DNA of 62,075 nucleotides from an uncultured Pseudobutyrivibrio sp. (lineage in GTDB: Bacteria; Bacillota; Clostridia; Lachnospirales; Lachnospiraceae). The first letter of the stretch is position 1, and each line of letters begins with the position of its first letter. The notes beneath the pieces are model-generated. The model saw only the letters and a list, made by a program, of their open reading frames with translations. It searched no databases and was not told the DNA's origin. Both the position numbers and the translations under genes were made by a program. This document shows positions 2,409-38,943 of this stretch, piece by piece. The stretch spans positions 1-62,075 of the forward strand of contig CAMJBT010000010.1 in the NCBI GenBank assembly GCA_946403965.1, read 5' to 3'.

Positions 2409-4088
2409 TTATTTATCCCAAATCAAAATCCGAATATATAGTAAGCAAAAAGCTCCAGATATTGTGGGATACAAATACTGTGGTCTTCCTTCCGGCATAA
2501 ATAGTATTATTCCAGCCAACTGTCCCAATAATGCCAGTGACATTAATACAAAAAATAACGCCTCCTTATTTTCTCTAATATTGAACATTTCATAGAACAG
2601 CATTGCTAATACACTAACAATTAAACCTATATTTTTAATAACATTTATTCCACTTGAATTCATTATATCTCTCCAAGCGGTTATAACTTTATTCAAAATT
2701 GTATTTGCGAACTGTCTTTTGTTGCTTTCAGCTATCCTCTCAGTCATTCCATCACTGTATAGTTCATTTCTTCCGTCTACCCACTGGGTATATTGAAATT
2801 TTTCAAGCTGTACTGTCGGCTCGTCTTCATACCAAAACTCATCCCAAGTTGGATCGATCTGTAAACTTCGATACAAGCAATTTAATTGAACATTTAAATA
2901 ATCATCTATATTGTGTACAACAATGTTATAATATGATTTCATATAGGCATCTGACTGTTCATCACTTACCAATGTTTGATTATAGTCAAGATGTCCCTTT
3001 GTCCAGTTGTAATTGCGAAATCCAGACTGACCTTGTTCTTTTATAACCTCTACAGGAATCACACTATCAATTGCTTCAAGATTTTCCTCTACCCCATCAT
3101 AAGACAGATTCGCATTTTCATTGTTAAAAATATTTCTTAATACTTCTATAGTGTTAATAATCATGTAGTCATTTCCATAATATTTAGTAGAACCAATCTC
3201 TTGCACTTTACTGATGGTAACGACCATAAGAAACGTACTTATAAGAAATACTAAAATCTTTTTGGCACCTACATGTATTCTAAAAAATGAAATAATAAAT
3301 ATTGCACATCCTACCAGACCAATAAGTTTTCCTTCACTTCTCCAGGACATTACTATCATTGTTATAAACGAACCGAATATAATCCTTTTATAGGTTATAA
3401 CATCATGATATTCATATATCTCAAAAAACATATATGCAATATAAAATATGACTATCACACTGTACAAATCACCTCTATATGGATTAATGACTAAATAGTA
3501 TGTTTCAGGCATGAGCAATATCAAAAATAAATAGTATGCTTTAGCACAATCACACCTTTCAGTAATACAATAAAAAATGTATCCTATAACACATGTAACT
3601 CCAACCAATTGCAACAATTGAACACTTATAGGATGTGGTATTACCATCATACAGGCACCGTAATATATTCCTGTCAATATATGCTGCCAATATGTAGGAA
3701 TAAATCTTTTTACCATAATATAGTTTTCGTAATTATCCATCTCTAGACCAAAGCTATCTGGATATGATATCAACAATACTATTAGTAAAAATACAAACAA
3801 AACAAGCACAGGAGCAAACACTTTCCTCGGCATTCGTCTTTCATATATTAAAAAAATAAGTTTCCATACACCCCAAATAATAAGTACACTGATTAATTTG
3901 GTCAATATATATATAATTACCTTCTCAGCATTAAAAGAAACAATAGATTCAGTCCTTAAAGTAAGCAGCGCATTATAGTTGTCATGGAAATAAAATATAA
4001 ACCTCTCATAAATAAAAGACAATAATATATGGATTAATGGCAATATATGCTTATATGATATATTTATTTTTTTTAATGTAAATTGCAT
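2409..4088 (-). CDS. Polytopic membrane protein, putative GT-C-like
   Basis: The protein has about 559 residues and ten or more hydrophobic segments. A polar, acidic loop after the third segment (SFGLEMDNYENYIM) is the kind of extracytoplasmic loop seen in GT-C glycosyltransferases, but I do not recognise the family. I place the start at ATG 4086-4088 because GGAGA lies seven bases upstream; a longer frame from TTG at 4118 lacks a ribosome site. A soluble stretch at about residues 310-430 is rich in Glu, Asp and Tyr. It is the last gene before the terminator at 2175-2216. A role in transferring or assembling lipid-linked sugars is inferred from context only. Confidence 0.65.
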   Translation of the reverse strand: MQFTLKKINISYKHILPLIHILLSFIYERFIFYFHDNYNALLTLRTESIVSFNAEKVIIYILTKLISVLIIWGVWKLIFLIYERRMPRKVFAPVLVLFVFLLIVLLISYPDSFGLEMDNYENYIMVKRFIPTYWQHILTGIYYGACMMVIPHPISVQLLQLVGVTCVIGYIFYCITERCDCAKAYYLFLILLMPETYYLVINPYRGDLYSVIVIFYIAYMFFEIYEYHDVITYKRIIFGSFITMIVMSWRSEGKLIGLVGCAIFIISFFRIHVGAKKILVFLISTFLMVVTISKVQEIGSTKYYGNDYMIINTIEVLRNIFNNENANLSYDGVEENLEAIDSVIPVEVIKEQGQSGFRNYNWTKGHLDYNQTLVSDEQSDAYMKSYYNIVVHNIDDYLNVQLNCLYRSLQIDPTWDEFWYEDEPTVQLEKFQYTQWVDGRNELYSDGMTERIAESNKRQFANTILNKVITAWRDIMNSSGINVIKNIGLIVSVLAMLFYEMFNIRENKEALFFVLMSLALLGQLAGIILFMPEGRPQYLYPTISGAFCLLYIRILIWDK

Positions 4089-7342: not shown

Positions 7343-8152
7343 TTAATTCTCCGTTTCATGGTTATTCTCAAATATTATATCTGCTGTATAATCTTCTACT
7401 ATCTTATCTCTGTGTTCCTGACTCAAGTATTTTTTTCTATTAAACATAAACGACAGCAACAATTTCAGTGTAGTCCACGCTTGGCTAGTCATCCTCACAT
7501 TCGAAACCTGATCCTCTTCCCTCCAAATTATCGGAAAGAATTTAACTGAATGTCTATAGAAAGAATGCCCTAGCAACATATAACAGTTGAATACCAAATT
7601 ATCCTTATACTTCTTATAAAATCTATCTTTCAAGATGTCAACTTTGTACATATTTAGTCCTGATCCCAAATCATAAACCCAAAATCTACATCCTATAGAA
7701 AAGAAAATATTGAACACCTTATTTCCAAAGGTTCTAAACTTTGAGTATCCATCAAGCTTTGACCCTTTTATGAATCTGGCACCCAGGAAACAATCATAGT
7801 TCTTGTATTCTCCCGATTGCAAGTATGGAAGAATATTCGCAATATCACCTTGATCATCTCCATGTAATACAATGATATAATCAAACTCATTCTTTATAGC
7901 ATATTCAAAAGCAACCTTGTGAGAGCCACCCAAACCATAGTTTTCTATATTTCTAAGCATTTTTACAGGTAGTTCCGAATATCTGTCACAATACTTTATT
8001 ACAGCTTGTTCTCCATCATCGGTGCTTCTGTTATTTGCAACAATTACTTCATCTAAATACTTCAAAACTTCTTGATTAAGTTGCCCCAATACTCTTACAA
8101 TCTGCTTTTCGCAGTTGTACATAGGGATGAATAGTAATATTTTGTCCTTCAT
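7343..8152 (-). CDS. Family 2 glycosyltransferase (DPM1/GtrB-like)
   Basis: The 269 residues show the GT2 N-terminus FIPMYNCE, VIVANNRSTDDG, and the metal site HGDDQGD at residues 97-103. There are no clear C-terminal membrane helices, unlike classical GtrB. The fold uses nucleotide-activated donors at the cytoplasmic face. It is first in the tight group running down to the HAD phosphatase and may use the donor that group makes. A 364-base gap separates it from the upstream acyltransferase gene, so a promoter may lie there. Confidence 0.8.
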   Translation of the reverse strand: MKDKILLFIPMYNCEKQIVRVLGQLNQEVLKYLDEVIVANNRSTDDGEQAVIKYCDRYSELPVKMLRNIENYGLGGSHKVAFEYAIKNEFDYIIVLHGDDQGDIANILPYLQSGEYKNYDCFLGARFIKGSKLDGYSKFRTFGNKVFNIFFSIGCRFWVYDLGSGLNMYKVDILKDRFYKKYKDNLVFNCYMLLGHSFYRHSVKFFPIIWREEDQVSNVRMTSQAWTTLKLLLSFMFNRKKYLSQEHRDKIVEDYTADIIFENNHETEN

Positions 8153-29954: not shown

Positions 29955-30070
29955 TCGTCACACATCTTTTATGAATCATCTAATTTAGATTCATCTATTT
30001 TCATGTCCCGCAAAGCAGGATTCTTGCTGACAATTTCTTTGCTTAGGAAGCAGTAAGTCCTGATTCTTTT

Positions 30071-31762
30071 TTACTTCGACAACAGCACCAAATCTCCATT
30101 GCTTGCCACTTCATTTGTGTACTCTGAAAGCAGCACCTGTCCGCACTCAGACTCTAATAGCTCCTGATACTTGTCGAGTCCTTTATCTATCAGCACAAGG
30201 TTTGCCACATAGTCCGGATTTGACTCCCAGAATGTCAAAAGTTGAGTGTCGATCTGTGGTCTGGTGTATGGCGAACCAGTTGCCATCACTGCATCAGTGT
30301 TCAGATAAGCAGTGGAATTGAATGCAAAAGTCACCAGCAGCTTATCCTCTGGTGTGACATAATCATTCATCAATTCCAACACCTGCTGATTTTTTTCATA
30401 GTCATCTGGAAGCAATGCAATGCCCTGCAAAGCTCCCTCTGTCACATAATATCTCTGTTCAAACACATGGTGGAAGCCGCCGTTCTTTTCTGGCAGCCAA
30501 ACACATGTAAAGAAAATCTCTCCAACAAAAAGTCCTGTGAGCAACAAATCATACTGCTCCGCTGTCACAAGCATGGCAATCATAGCCAGCACGATGTAGT
30601 AAGCCATGTGCCCTGGGATGGTAATATCCTGGTTTGTCGAAACAGCCCACACCCCCTGTGAAACACATGTCACAGCAAAAACAATCCAGCAAACAAGGCT
30701 TGCTGAAATATCCGCCTGCTTGTATGAGCCCACCACTGTGTAGTCGGACTTGGCCTCTCTGGCAAAATATGGGAACCACCAAAACAGAACAAGGACTCCA
30801 TAGATGAAACGTGAATAGCTAACGCTTTCGATTCTAGCTGCGCACACCGCCACCATGAAAACGATCCAGTAAATACCAAGAATCGCCTCTGCCACAAATT
30901 CGGACATTGCTCTATGCTTCTTGTACAGCTCGATTGCCGCCACCGGTGCGTAGGCAATCACGAATGTCACCACATAGCTGAGAATCATCATCCCAAGTCT
31001 AACGATGAATGGATCATCATAATCATATGATGAATTCATGTAAAGCATGAAGCTGTTGATTCCCTCTACAATCCCGCATGTAAGCTGCATATATACAAGG
31101 AACAATACGCCACATACCAGGCAAGTCACGCTGTAGATAATAAGATTCTTTATCATCTCGTATCCCTGGTAGCTAAGAATCAAACCGCCAATCACGAAAG
31201 CGAATGGCAGGATAATCATTGTAGGGTATGCCAGTATGCAAATGCAGCTTGCCACGCCCATCAGCACAAAATAAAAGCTATGATTGTTCTGGCAGTATCT
31301 GAAAATGAAGCAGATGAGAAGAATCAATCCAAAATCACAAATTGATTTGTAGGAGAAATTCCTCCAGCCAACAATAAACAAGAAATAGAAAAGAGCTGTG
31401 AAGAATGCCCCATCCTGATATTCTGTCTTCTTCAATGTGAAATATAGATACACAGCAATAAGCAGTCTAAGAATCATGTACACAATCCTGGTGTAAAGCA
31501 CCATGCCAATACCAACTGCCGAAAGCCCTGGCGCCAATACCTGGTAATACAAGGCGAAAATCGGATACATCAGCACACTGGCCATATTGTACTCCGACCA
31601 GGAATCCACAAACATTCTCTCCCCTTGATAGATGCCTCTATACACAGTCAGAAGCCCATTTTCATCTATATACATACCCTGCACAAGATTGGCAAAAACC
31701 ACTCCAAGCAGCACAAGCGCCAATATTATCTTAAAAGGTGTTGAATTAAATAGCTTGATCAT
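30071..31762 (-). CDS. Large polytopic membrane protein, GT39-like
   Basis: The 563 residues give about 12 helices and a C-terminal soluble domain (LLPDDYEKNQQVLELMNDYV onwards) that may face outside. The first loop GMYIDENGLLTVYRGIYQGE, with D-E and a following Tyr/Arg, resembles dolichyl-phosphate-mannose-type GT-C transferases. It follows the 1.8 kb gene-free region with the hairpin array, so its transcript may carry that array as a leader, or it may have its own promoter close to 31763-31800. Substrate unknown. Confidence 0.6.
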   Translation of the reverse strand: MIKLFNSTPFKIILALVLLGVVFANLVQGMYIDENGLLTVYRGIYQGERMFVDSWSEYNMASVLMYPIFALYYQVLAPGLSAVGIGMVLYTRIVYMILRLLIAVYLYFTLKKTEYQDGAFFTALFYFLFIVGWRNFSYKSICDFGLILLICFIFRYCQNNHSFYFVLMGVASCICILAYPTMIILPFAFVIGGLILSYQGYEMIKNLIIYSVTCLVCGVLFLVYMQLTCGIVEGINSFMLYMNSSYDYDDPFIVRLGMMILSYVVTFVIAYAPVAAIELYKKHRAMSEFVAEAILGIYWIVFMVAVCAARIESVSYSRFIYGVLVLFWWFPYFAREAKSDYTVVGSYKQADISASLVCWIVFAVTCVSQGVWAVSTNQDITIPGHMAYYIVLAMIAMLVTAEQYDLLLTGLFVGEIFFTCVWLPEKNGGFHHVFEQRYYVTEGALQGIALLPDDYEKNQQVLELMNDYVTPEDKLLVTFAFNSTAYLNTDAVMATGSPYTRPQIDTQLLTFWESNPDYVANLVLIDKGLDKYQELLESECGQVLLSEYTNEVASNGDLVLLSK

Positions 31763-31807
31763 ATCTAGTAGTACCCTTTTTCTCCATAATTATTTACTCT
31801 CTCTACT

Positions 31808-31917
31808 CCTGTGGGCCAGATAAATTGGCCCCACTCATTCTGTGGCCCACTTATATGGCCCACAGGAAGTCATAGATTCTTACTGCCAATTTCATTGTAT
31901 GCTCAGCAAGAAGTCAT
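31808..31917. repeat. Intergenic palindrome pair (TGACTTC-flank family)
   Basis: CCTGTGGGCCA at 31808-31818 pairs with TGGCCCACAGG at 31856-31866. It is followed by GAAGTCATAGATTCTTAC, then a second imperfect stem ending CAGCAAGAAGTCATA near 31917. The same flank and stem core occur at 33470-33510, 38900-38930, 39021-39056 and 39522-39557. I take these as members of one small repeat family. Confidence 0.6.
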
Positions 31918-32074
31918 ACTCTTTTGTATTCTACCACACTGCATTTGTTTCCGCAAAATAATACACTGGATTTGCTGGAGGAGTGGGGGCTTGAGTGCTT
32001 AAAAGGCTCTCCCCAGTCAGTTTCTTGCTCTTTTCTTCCTCTTTTCTTTATCTTCTCCCAGCTTTCTCTACACA

Positions 32075-33000
32075 GCCAGGCTCTTCCACTATAACTAGCA
32101 TGCCTTCTCTCTGACTCTGGCTTTCTAAGATTTTCCTCTGTCAGGCCTTTCCTCTATAAATAGCTGACTTTCTGACATATTCCCCTTCTCAGTCAGCCTT
32201 TTTATCTACTTGCGCCCTCATCTACCAGGCTCTTCCACTATAATTGGCTGACTCTCTTACATATTTCACTCCCTAGTCAGCCTTTTGCTCTACTCGCGCC
32301 CTCCTCTGCTAGGCTCTTCCACTATAATTAGCTGACTCTCCGACATATTTCACTTCTCAGTCAGCCTTTTCTTCTACTTTAGCCTTCTACAAACTACTTC
32401 TCCCGCTATTATGGGCTGACTCTCTTACACATTTCTCTTCTCAGTCAGCCTTTTGCTCTTCTCACGCCCTCCTCTGCCAGGCTCTTGCACTATAATTGGC
32501 TGACTCTCCGCTATTTTTTCTTTCCAGTCAGTCTTTTATACTCTCCGAGCCTTCCGCACACTGCCTCTCTCACAAAAAACATACTATTTCCCAATTTTTC
32601 ATTCTTTGTATGCATTTTTTAATTCTCCCATCTTTCTCTGTCTGCTTCTCCCAATATAAAAAGCATATTATTTATCATGTTTTGCTCTTCAGTATGCCTT
32701 TTCTTTTCCCTATACCTTCATCTGACTGCTTTCGCCAGTAAAAAAGGCATACTAGCTGCTATACTTTCCTCCTCAGTATGCCTTTTCTACTCCTCTGACC
32801 TTCCGCACACTGCTTCCGCCGGTAAAAAAGCATACTAGCTGCTATATTTTTCTCATCTGTATGTCTCTTCTCCTCCAGCCTTCTCTTCTCCTCGACCCTT
32901 CCTCTAAATATAGCTTCCTATCCGCTATTCTTTTCTCCCCCATCAGCCTTTTTATCTTTTCAAGTTTTCCACAAACTTCCCACCCCAAAAAGCTGATAAT
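32075..33000. repeat. 84-bp tandem array of hairpins, about ten units
   Basis: Corresponding left arms start at 32163, 32247, 32331, 32415, 32499, about 32579, 32663, 32747, 32830 and 32913, a spacing of 84 or close to it. Units from 32163 to 32499 have GCTGACT paired with AGTCAGC; units at 32663, 32747 and 32830 have GCATACT-type arms paired with AGTATGC-type arms. Both arms therefore changed together. On the plus strand each stem is followed by TTTT and a CT-rich spacer; on the minus strand the DNA is purine-rich. There is no long open frame. It lies between the secreted-protein gene and the membrane-protein gene at 30071-31762. Confidence 0.8.
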
Positions 33001-33528
33001 CGATATGCAATTGCAAGGCTTCATCCCTCCCCACTAAAAGCTTTGATAACATAAATAGCACCAATTATGATTTATCACTTTAGATTATGTACTACAATTT
33101 CCTTCGACCCCATAATCACAATCATTACAAAGCCCTAAATGAAGCTGAATTGCTTAATAGAGCGGATACCAAGCAAGGAACATGACAACTTCTAATCTTC
33201 TCAGGCCAACAAACTATCCTAAAACTACAGGCTAGCCAAACTTAATCTGTTCTTGAGTTCATCGCCGTCGGTAATTAACTGACAGCGGTTCTTTTTTGTG
33301 TTGTCAAGGGTGGCGTCATGTTTATTCAGAGTAAAATATTTGCAATTTTCATTTTTCAATATGAGCTTTATTTCTTTGGCCCCTTTTTTTCAAAGCTCCT
33401 TGACGCTACATCATTTTCATATGGATATTCACCAGTAAAGCTCACAAAATTCAAAAACAAAAAAGCCAGGTTCCTTAGGGGCTTTTCCTTAAGTGGCCTG
33501 CAAGAAGTCATCCCAAATCCCACAACAA
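33001..33528. other. Gene-free stretch downstream of the secreted repeat protein
   Basis: Together with the array this completes a 1.8 kb region (31763-33576) without a gene. It contains AT-rich DNA, imperfect inverted GTGGCGTCA (about 33309) and TGACGCTAC (about 33401), and near 33470-33510 a degenerate palindrome of the TGACTTC-flank family (GGGGCTTTTCCTTAAGTGGCC type). Plus-strand open frames here are short and have no recognisable product. Confidence 0.4.
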
Positions 33529-33566
33529 AAAAAGACTTGAGTCCCTTCACTGACTCAAGTCTTTTT
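33529..33566. terminator. Perfect 15-bp hairpin terminator
   Basis: AAAAAGACTTGAGTC (33529-33543) pairs perfectly with GACTCAAGTCTTTTT (33552-33566), with an eight-base loop and T-runs in both directions. It lies ten bases after the stop of the secreted-protein gene and probably ends the minus-strand transcript there. Transcription of the genes to the left would then need its own promoter. Confidence 0.8.
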
Positions 33567-33576
33567 AATCTCGTTA

Positions 33577-34161
33577 TTATTTATTGTTTTCCTGCTCCTG
33601 CTCATCTTCCCAAGCAAAATGAAGCTTTGGATGATAGTTGTATGTCTGGATTGGAAGTGCACCAGCACGAGGTGCTGTCTGACCCTTTACAAAATCGTAT
33701 ACAGAGTATACATTTGTGTTCTTGTAGTAGCTGTCCTCAAGTGTTGGAGTTGGTCTATAATATCTGTCAGCATTTGTGCTCTGAGCATAGTGCATATAAT
33801 ATGCGATAATGTCATCGCCAAAAGCGCTTCTAAGATCCAAGTTTCTAGATGCATAAGCGTCTACGTTGAAGTCAGCACGTGGCTGTCTCTCTTCCCAAAT
33901 ACCCCACTCTAAGAAATGATTTACAAGAGCTGCAGAATTGTCACGTCCAAAGGCCTTTACAAGGTCTGGGTTAACCTTCTGATAATACTGCCAATCAACA
34001 AGTGGTGTGATTGTGGCAATCTCCTCCGCAGTAAGAGCTCTCTTGTGTGTCTCAGCACGAGTAGCTGCAAAACTGTTTACTGAAAAGAACGAAATAGCAA
34101 CAACAGTTGCAAGTGCTAGAGACAAGATTTTTGATACTTTTAACATCTTCATAGCATTCAC
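33577..34161 (-). CDS. Small secreted protein with two NPDL/AFG repeats
   Basis: The 194-residue product starts with a signal peptide (positive start, hydrophobic 10-29, cleavage likely after SFA at about 32). Two related repeats follow: residues 55-93 (VDWQYYQKVNPDL, AFG, HFLEWGIWEERQ) and 98-128 (FNVDAYASRNLDL, AFGDD, YYMHYAQ). Repeats of this FD-YY---NPDL---FG-D...HF--G type are common in exported Lachnospiraceae proteins, often near cell-wall domains; their binding partner is not established. AGGAAAGGTGA precedes the ATG. It has its own likely promoter and terminator, so it is a separate transcription unit inside the glycan locus. Confidence 0.8.
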   Translation of the reverse strand: MNAMKMLKVSKILSLALATVVAISFFSVNSFAATRAETHKRALTAEEIATITPLVDWQYYQKVNPDLVKAFGRDNSAALVNHFLEWGIWEERQPRADFNVDAYASRNLDLRSAFGDDIIAYYMHYAQSTNADRYYRPTPTLEDSYYKNTNVYSVYDFVKGQTAPRAGALPIQTYNYHPKLHFAWEDEQEQENNK

Positions 34162-38899: not shown

Positions 38900-38930
38900 C
38901 TTGCTGGCAATTCCTTGTTCTGCCAGCAAG
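38900..38930. repeat. Palindrome, TGACTTC-flank family
   Basis: CTTGCTGGCA (38900-38909) pairs with TGCCAGCAAG (38921-38930). It is followed on the plus strand by AAGTCATAGG and preceded by TATAGATT, the flanks shared by the other copies. Confidence 0.65.
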
Positions 38931-38943
38931 AAGTCATAGGTTT

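Follow-up and report, generated by a model that had tools for sequence, protein, structure and literature searches.

The window, i.e., the complete stretch of 62,075 nt that was analyzed, originates from an uncultured Pseudobutyrivibrio sp., and its long stop-free frames are all located on the minus strand. A gene encoding 194 aa (33577..34161, minus strand) is followed by an intrinsic terminator (33529..33566, minus strand; terminator scan), which lies within a stretch aligning with a sister species. The downstream gene (30071..31762, minus strand) encodes a multi-pass membrane protein of 563 aa, and a promoter-like extended -10 sequence of this gene, TGTGGTAGAATAC, was located at 31926..31938 on the minus strand by pattern matching and by eye. 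The terminator and the promoter-like element bracket array C10, which consists of ten units of about 84 bp and extends, in minus-strand reading, over approximately 32123-32956 according to TRF, a covariance model and the alignment of units.

About ten spaced hairpin units had been reported at 32075..33000 in a preliminary description of this DNA. This was borne out, with the spacing corrected to 81-84 bp, mostly 84, and the extent corrected to the above positions plus degenerate remnants of further units at 31999..32112 (minus strand; model search, E 0.014 and 0.72). All units are in register, and the 84-bp period was detected by TRF at 32134-32508 and 32637-32876. On the plus strand, the hairpins start at 32162, 32246, 32330, 32414, 32498, 32578, 32662, 32746, 32829 and 32912. 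Read on the minus strand, a unit is composed of an A-run, an 8-nt arm, a loop of 21 nt (20 nt in one unit), the complementary arm and a linker, with the consensus A-run, GGC(TGA/ATA)CT, 21-nt loop, AGT(CAG/ATG)CC, linker; in most units the inverted repeat reaches up to 8 bp. As described before, the stems differ between the two sides of the array. The left five hairpins (32162..32534, minus strand) carry the stem GGCTGACT/AGTCAGCC, containing GCTGACT/AGTCAGC, with an A-C mismatch at an outer pair in one of them. The right four (32578..32865, minus strand) carry GGCATACT/AGTATGCC, containing GCATACT/AGTATGC, of which two are imperfect (units 32578 and 32829, each with two unpaired positions). 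The tenth unit (32912..32948, minus strand) has the broken stem GGCTGATG/AGGAAGCT.

All six frames of the array are interrupted by at least eight stop codons each, the longest stop-free run being 81 codons, in agreement with the earlier statement that there is no open frame. The AGGAGG motif described inside some units was likewise seen on the minus strand in several of them. Compared with 20 shuffles for each strand, the complete array showed the better folding, with z values of -4.85 (minus strand) and -6.62 (plus strand), and for four hairpins, two of C10 and one each of C33b and C54, fold energies of -9.4 to -16.6 kcal/mol were calculated on both strands. Neither in the window nor in nine array loci was a match to an Rfam model found at the gathering score.

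Ten arrays in one genome

Including C10, the genome contains ten arrays in about eight spacers, which have the 84-bp pitch and the 21-nt loop in common: C10 in the window, C20a and C20b, C33a, C33b and C33c, C38 and C38b, C54, and C74, the number in each name denoting the contig. A DNA search with the array revealed two weak matches in contig C33, and a stem-pattern search added more. A first covariance model built from 18 units resulted in 44 matches forming nine arrays on six contigs, and the tenth array, C38b, was weakly detected by a local model search of the array loci. The 53 matches of a second model (46 units) correspond to the ten arrays and to single hairpins 3′ of two of them, without any new locus among the best 150 of approximately 530-1,720 candidates scored per genome, so that single or weak copies may escape these searches.

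The arrays comprise 2 to 10 units. In nearly all units the loop is 21 nt long (22 or 20 in a few), 38 of the 46 aligned units have a length of 84 nt, and 29 of the 40 unit intervals are exactly 84 bp, with all of them falling within 81-85 bp; one of the two 82-bp intervals, in C74, is an artefact of a double match. Partial or degenerate units are omitted from the 46-unit alignment, e.g., window 31999-32112, L092:2572-2654 and 3699-3778, L061:5748-5830, and L060:7462-7502, 7923-8001 and 2717-2797, as well as the single hairpins 3′ of C54 and C74. A reading as coding repeats was rejected due to the lack of a common open frame, only C33a being stop-free throughout in one sense frame. Two array loci have further tandem repeats beside them (L092:4132-4411, L093:7217-7335), of which the 39-bp one is part of a lipoprotein-like gene and the 42-bp one lies outside long ORFs.

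By means of the first covariance model and the DNA search, no array was found in the 28 other species of the genus. The first model gave matches in three of the 29 genus genomes, namely the 44 in the own genome and one each in G005, read as an in-frame coding repeat, and in G026, located within a 549-aa coding frame. Outside the own genome, the DNA search matched only 30 bp in G007, where the query edge aligned. When the stem pattern was relaxed, it occurred in two of 99 genomes, the own genome and the order relative G066, which has two sites and no run. In a scan of 84,980 species genomes, from which the records nearest to the own genome may be absent, the stem pattern occurred at 84 single sites and in no array, with about 120 chance matches expected by arithmetic (entries with two positions represent one site on both strands). 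Near 87 sites (80 of the 84 genomic ones and 7 from viral contigs), tandem repeats with a period of 60-110 were absent except for one, which lies inside a leucine-rich-repeat-like gene.

For siblings possibly carrying arrays with other stems, 40 stretches of 20 kb were surveyed (800 kb in total: 200 kb each from G003, G005, G014 and G022, about 6% of each genome), and no non-coding repeat with a period of 60-110 and at least 2.5 copies was detected. G014 does have an 84-bp repeat with 10.6 copies (L236), but a long open frame contains all of it, and it was read as coding. The open-frame filter of this survey is unreliable when used alone, as 99% of the true array C33b is covered by a spurious frame.

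Stem constraint and the two stem versions

Across the ten arrays, the stems cluster near the same two versions that are present in C10. Between arrays, the stems differ by 0.24, which is mostly the switch between the two versions, the loops by 0.60 and the linkers by 0.64, compared with a difference of about 70% expected by arithmetic for unrelated sequences of like composition. The mean identity of the non-stem positions between arrays ranges from 0.23 to 0.58, except for the pairs C33c/C38b (0.72) and C54/C74 (0.87).

Within the arrays of at least three units, 10 of 112 stem columns are variable vs 187 of 475 other columns when C10 is left aside (Fisher p 4e-11), and 22 of 128 vs 246 of 543 when it is included (p 2e-9), a comparison with a built-in bias, as the columns are partly dependent, unit recognition relied on the stems, and degenerate units at the array ends were excluded. 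The earlier conclusion that the pairing and not the sequence had been kept is contradicted by these numbers: the sequence was kept as well. Nor are the stems random, as had been considered for the case of a neutral satellite.

Standard pairs account for 92.7% across the aligned stems. The covariation score of 0.317 was reached in 0 of 500 shuffles (mean 0.150), and sliding controls gave at most 0.080. The covariation between the arms that had been noted initially is thus real, but it is confined to two of the eight stem pairs, which are neighbors and toggle between two fixed alternatives. All 500 shuffles equalled or exceeded the observed counts of changing pairs and of pair types. An RNA helix covarying independently of its sequence was rejected, compensatory change being found at two of the eight pairs only.

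A poorly supported tree built from the non-stem columns implies three changes of the stem version, vs a mean of 15.6 with shuffled labels. Furthermore, the two stem classes of C10 are closer to each other (0.52) than the ATA class of C10 is to the other ATA arrays (at most 0.47). Therefore, the stem appears to have switched within the C10 array while the loop did not, in a concerted change between two fixed sequences.

Transcription context and the metY leader

On the minus strand, C10 would form a purine-rich leader of the membrane-protein gene according to the preliminary description. The position of the array between a terminator and a likely promoter argues against this, and C10 is therefore probably not transcribed with its neighbor. 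The sister species G014, which is the closest relative by the downstream protein (84% identity), has TGTGATAGAATAC 5′ of the same gene. This genome aligns to window positions 34251-33521, covering the upstream gene and its terminator, and to 31796-30070, covering the downstream gene; the 723-nt spacer between these flanks has no blastn match to the window stretch and contains no array.

The array C54 is located between a terminator-like hairpin of the upstream gene and a promoter-like sequence before a symporter gene (by eye), the latter resembling that of several siblings. C33a occupies an operon-like spacer and C33b lies between divergent genes, while C20b begins just past a TATAAT-like site and C20a follows a gene. 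In all seven loci with a known downstream gene (C10, C33a, C33b, C33c/C38, C38b, C20 and C54), the array has the sense of this gene, and in seven of eight loci that of the upstream gene, C33b being the exception. The same-sense orientation suggests a link to transcripts or to replication, and it fits transcription, the direction of replication and an avoidance of T-runs on the sense strand alike.

A different situation was found for metY. Matches to this gene are present in 28 of the 29 genus genomes, that of G001 being only a 42% paralogue, and the upstream regions were oriented and compared at 27 loci. The promoter-like sequence CTTTAATGTGNTAAAGT lies 5′ of metY in 24 of the 26 siblings (L187-L212) with at most two changes, the exceptions being G027 and G020. 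The array stem is absent within 330 nt upstream of metY in all 26 siblings. In G022 (L190), a neuD-like gene is directly followed by the leader and metY, with no array in between; the right end of contig C33 matches this locus up to position 1491 and the part matching C38 begins at 1496. In the own genome (G000), the promoter-like element is situated near the end of C33 (L094:5832) and is followed by array C33c, and contig C38 ends with metY, upstream of which array C38 is found. From this comparison we infer that the two contigs adjoin, in which case the metY leader would hold eight units or more (two and six model matches). Judged by this arrangement, a sister array probably sits in the metY leader.

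In the siblings, a GGAG..CTCC hairpin often stands right behind the promoter-like sequence of metY. The gap between this hairpin and the RBS carries other structured-looking inserts, one kind in G014 and G010 and another in G002 and G021, and no Rfam match was obtained for the three inserts scanned (L187, L194, L196). This gap looks like a hot spot for insertions.

A role as RNA regulator was considered: transcribed as purine-rich leaders or as sponges, the arrays would control the gene downstream through hairpins binding a protein or an RNA. The metY arrays would lie between a promoter-like element with a leader hairpin and the RBS, provided that C33 and C38 join, but C10 is placed between a terminator and a promoter-like element, and so is C54 by eye. 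The consistent sense relative to the downstream genes agrees with a regulator, although the orientation may just follow replication, given that the long frames of the window are all on one strand. Departures from the stem consensus, read on the sense strand, comprise 19 G-U cells vs 7 A-C cells, but these figures count cells and correspond by a rough tally to about 12 vs 5 events, which is not significant. Considering also that the aligned loops of the ten arrays have no clear common motif and that no Rfam match was found, this explanation is regarded as unlikely.

Relation to known repeats, spread and possible roles

The mycobacterial MIRU are tandem repeats of similar unit length at many dispersed loci, which have one orientation relative to the genes and carry short reading frames overlapping their neighbors; the arrays described here differ from them by lacking a common open frame. 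Extragenic palindromes of the REP/RAYT type resemble the arrays in forming repeated families, some of which are species-specific (PMC3733652), and differ from them in that here the loop is long, the tandem pitch is fixed and a Y1 transposase match is missing. By eye, a GTAG or CGTC foot was not seen beside the array stems.

The statement that no described element of this form is known was too strong, as STAR and BOX are close in kind (PMC3532100, PMC3049150). STAR elements of Staphylococcus have a conserved motif, locus-specific spacers and species-specific locations, some of them in mRNA leaders, and their function is unknown; the motif, searched for as TNTGTTGNGGCCC, is directly repeated, GC-rich and 14 bp long, in a tandem unit of about 50 nt (PMC3532100). 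The present arrays share with STAR the interspersed intergenic tandem arrangement, the conserved short motif, the locus-specific spacers and the species-dependent distribution, but they have paired 8-bp arms, a 21-nt loop and an 84-bp unit and occur in another genus; the STAR core was not seen by eye in the 46 aligned units. BOX, RUP and SPRITE are species-restricted, form stem-loops and are judged to be parasitic (PMC3049150). BOX of Streptococcus pneumoniae is modular with multi-copy boxB, predicted RNA stem-loops and transcription in places, and is judged non-autonomous; its copies end in boxA and boxC and show terminal inverted repeats as well as target duplications (PMC3049150). Like BOX, the arrays are a species-restricted modular stem-loop repeat, whose copy number varies between the arrays of this genome; unlike BOX, they are found at few loci and mostly as multi-unit arrays. 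A pairwise comparison of the loci revealed no common ends of the BOX type, the closest empty site (metY of G022) facing a contig break in the own genome. Among titles and abstract openings, a literature search returned neither an 84-bp hairpin array nor a name for such a family.

The hairpin arrays work like STAR and BOX, whose defining sequence features were not seen in them, and are not members of either group. The reading of C10 as a member of a species-private, interspersed and tandemly amplified family of hairpin repeats, which is of the STAR/BOX kind and unrelated to these in sequence, is held with moderate confidence. The observations of the preliminary description are confirmed and its interpretation is partly supported.

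For the spread of the family, C54 and C74 are informative, as they have 1,098 bp in common at 92% identity. Judged by this common array and adjoining block, an array has moved together with neighboring DNA at least once. Over 576 bp of the block behind the array, the two copies are separated by 22 substitutions without an indel, and for a 446-bp piece of the block only scraps of 26-40 bp were found in three other genus genomes. Two further hairpins of the GCTGACT type were observed in the block (L093:6350-6925, L061:6251-6826), and over about 290 bp in its interior the two copies are identical, in contrast to both ends of the block. A possible course of events is that a unit is seeded into a spacer and multiplies by slippage or unequal exchange, and that copies reach new spacers, sometimes carrying flanking DNA. 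The arms would be recognized by their sequence and dyad and hence be kept, the recognizer most likely being the process of spreading or maintenance, or else a host factor. No transposase or other carrier could be tied to the family. In particular, mobilization by Y1/RAYT was rejected for lack of a match to the Y1 transposase model PF01797 in G000 (assembly 94.8% complete), which is positive in 10 of the 29 genus genomes. Where an array lies inside a transcript, as may be the case in the metY leader, its hairpins would probably shift mRNA stability or output slightly.

Two features of the family are odd, namely its near-fixed pitch and its two stem versions, and their persistence over diverged linkers suggests a tighter constraint than a simple parasite needs. 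One explanation is a phased DNA array to which a filament or nucleoid protein would bind, the arms being its half-sites at a pitch of 84 bp, or about eight helical turns. The pitch of ten arrays with a linker difference of about 0.64 and the retained arm sequence are in line with this proposal, but a common origin also explains the pitch if indels are rare, as in C54/C74. Moreover, the arms are 29 and 55 bp apart, which are not whole turns, any pitch has by arithmetic a chance of about 3 in 10 of falling within 1 bp of whole turns, and no such protein has been identified; the proposal is therefore considered rather improbable. A more far-reaching version, put forward as speculation with a small chance of being correct, is a species-private recognizer, protein or RNA, which would read a TGA or ATA stem code at the 84-bp pitch and thereby mark about eight spacers, with runs of units being recodable between the two versions. 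If this were true, the marked sites could be, e.g., domain boundaries or co-regulated sites including the metY leader and cell-surface glycan loci.

Concerted changes of both arms could also arise by quasipalindrome correction, in which one arm is templated by the other. Within the favored hairpin-repeat family, this process could account for the switch between the stem versions. In a neutral satellite, it would be all that keeps the arms paired, and both the restriction to one species and the approximately three co-switches of the arms without the loop, which appear on the poorly resolved unit tree, would be compatible with this. However, correction preserves the pairing but does not hold ten arrays to the same two sequences, and within arrays the stems vary far less than the rest, with the caveat that the units were found by their stems, which makes a neutral satellite very improbable.

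The weakest proposal is a row of terminators or a unidirectional block of antisense transcription. The terminator reading had been derived from T-runs after every plus-strand stem; in C10 such runs (at least four T, by eye) are present behind nine of the ten stems, with the exception of 32829, and in several GGCATACT units the stem is preceded by an A-run and followed by a T-run. This proposal is now hardly credible, because the 21-nt loops are longer than the short loops of intrinsic terminators, no terminator was called inside the array by a scan admitting loops of 3-8 only, the antisense stems of C20a lack T-runs, and arrays in the metY leader, if active in sense, would cut off their own gene.

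As a hairpin-repeat family of its own, the arrays offer a clean anatomy with constrained stems, drifting linkers, a near-fixed pitch and a paired stem switch. They allow a question left open for STAR to be asked, namely whether such a repeat is kept for the cell or by its own spread, and the same gene neighborhoods without arrays in close relatives provide for direct tests by deletion and comparison.

Besides the arrays, a genus-wide dispersed palindrome with the ends TATGACTTCTTGC/GCAAGAAGTCATA was observed in the window at 31875-31918 and 38926-38938, with a related copy at 33462-33511 and one recognized by eye at 29980-30040. Copies containing GCAAGAAGTCATA fall within 31806..31918 (no strand assigned), between the promoter-like element and the membrane-protein gene, where a strong hairpin with 27-nt arms (TCCTGTGGGCC.. 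/ ..GGCCCACAGGA) is located as well (31806-31868). The palindrome is represented by 15 exact 13-mers in the own genome and occurs in 22 of the 29 genus genomes, compared with two control matches in all. It adjoins or trails the arrays C10, C20b, C38b, C54 and C74 and resembles a hairpin chain. Four non-tandem copies of a dispersed palindrome on four contigs of Enterococcus sp. CU9D (L125, L126, L151, L162) by chance carry GGCTGACT/AGTCAGCC arms with the 21-nt separation, the flanks being similar among the copies. Finally, the stretch 33243-33415 of the window is a probable insertion-sequence remnant, and similar DNA is present in G003 in three copies, about 110 nt past a transposase-like ORF of 433 aa (named by reading).
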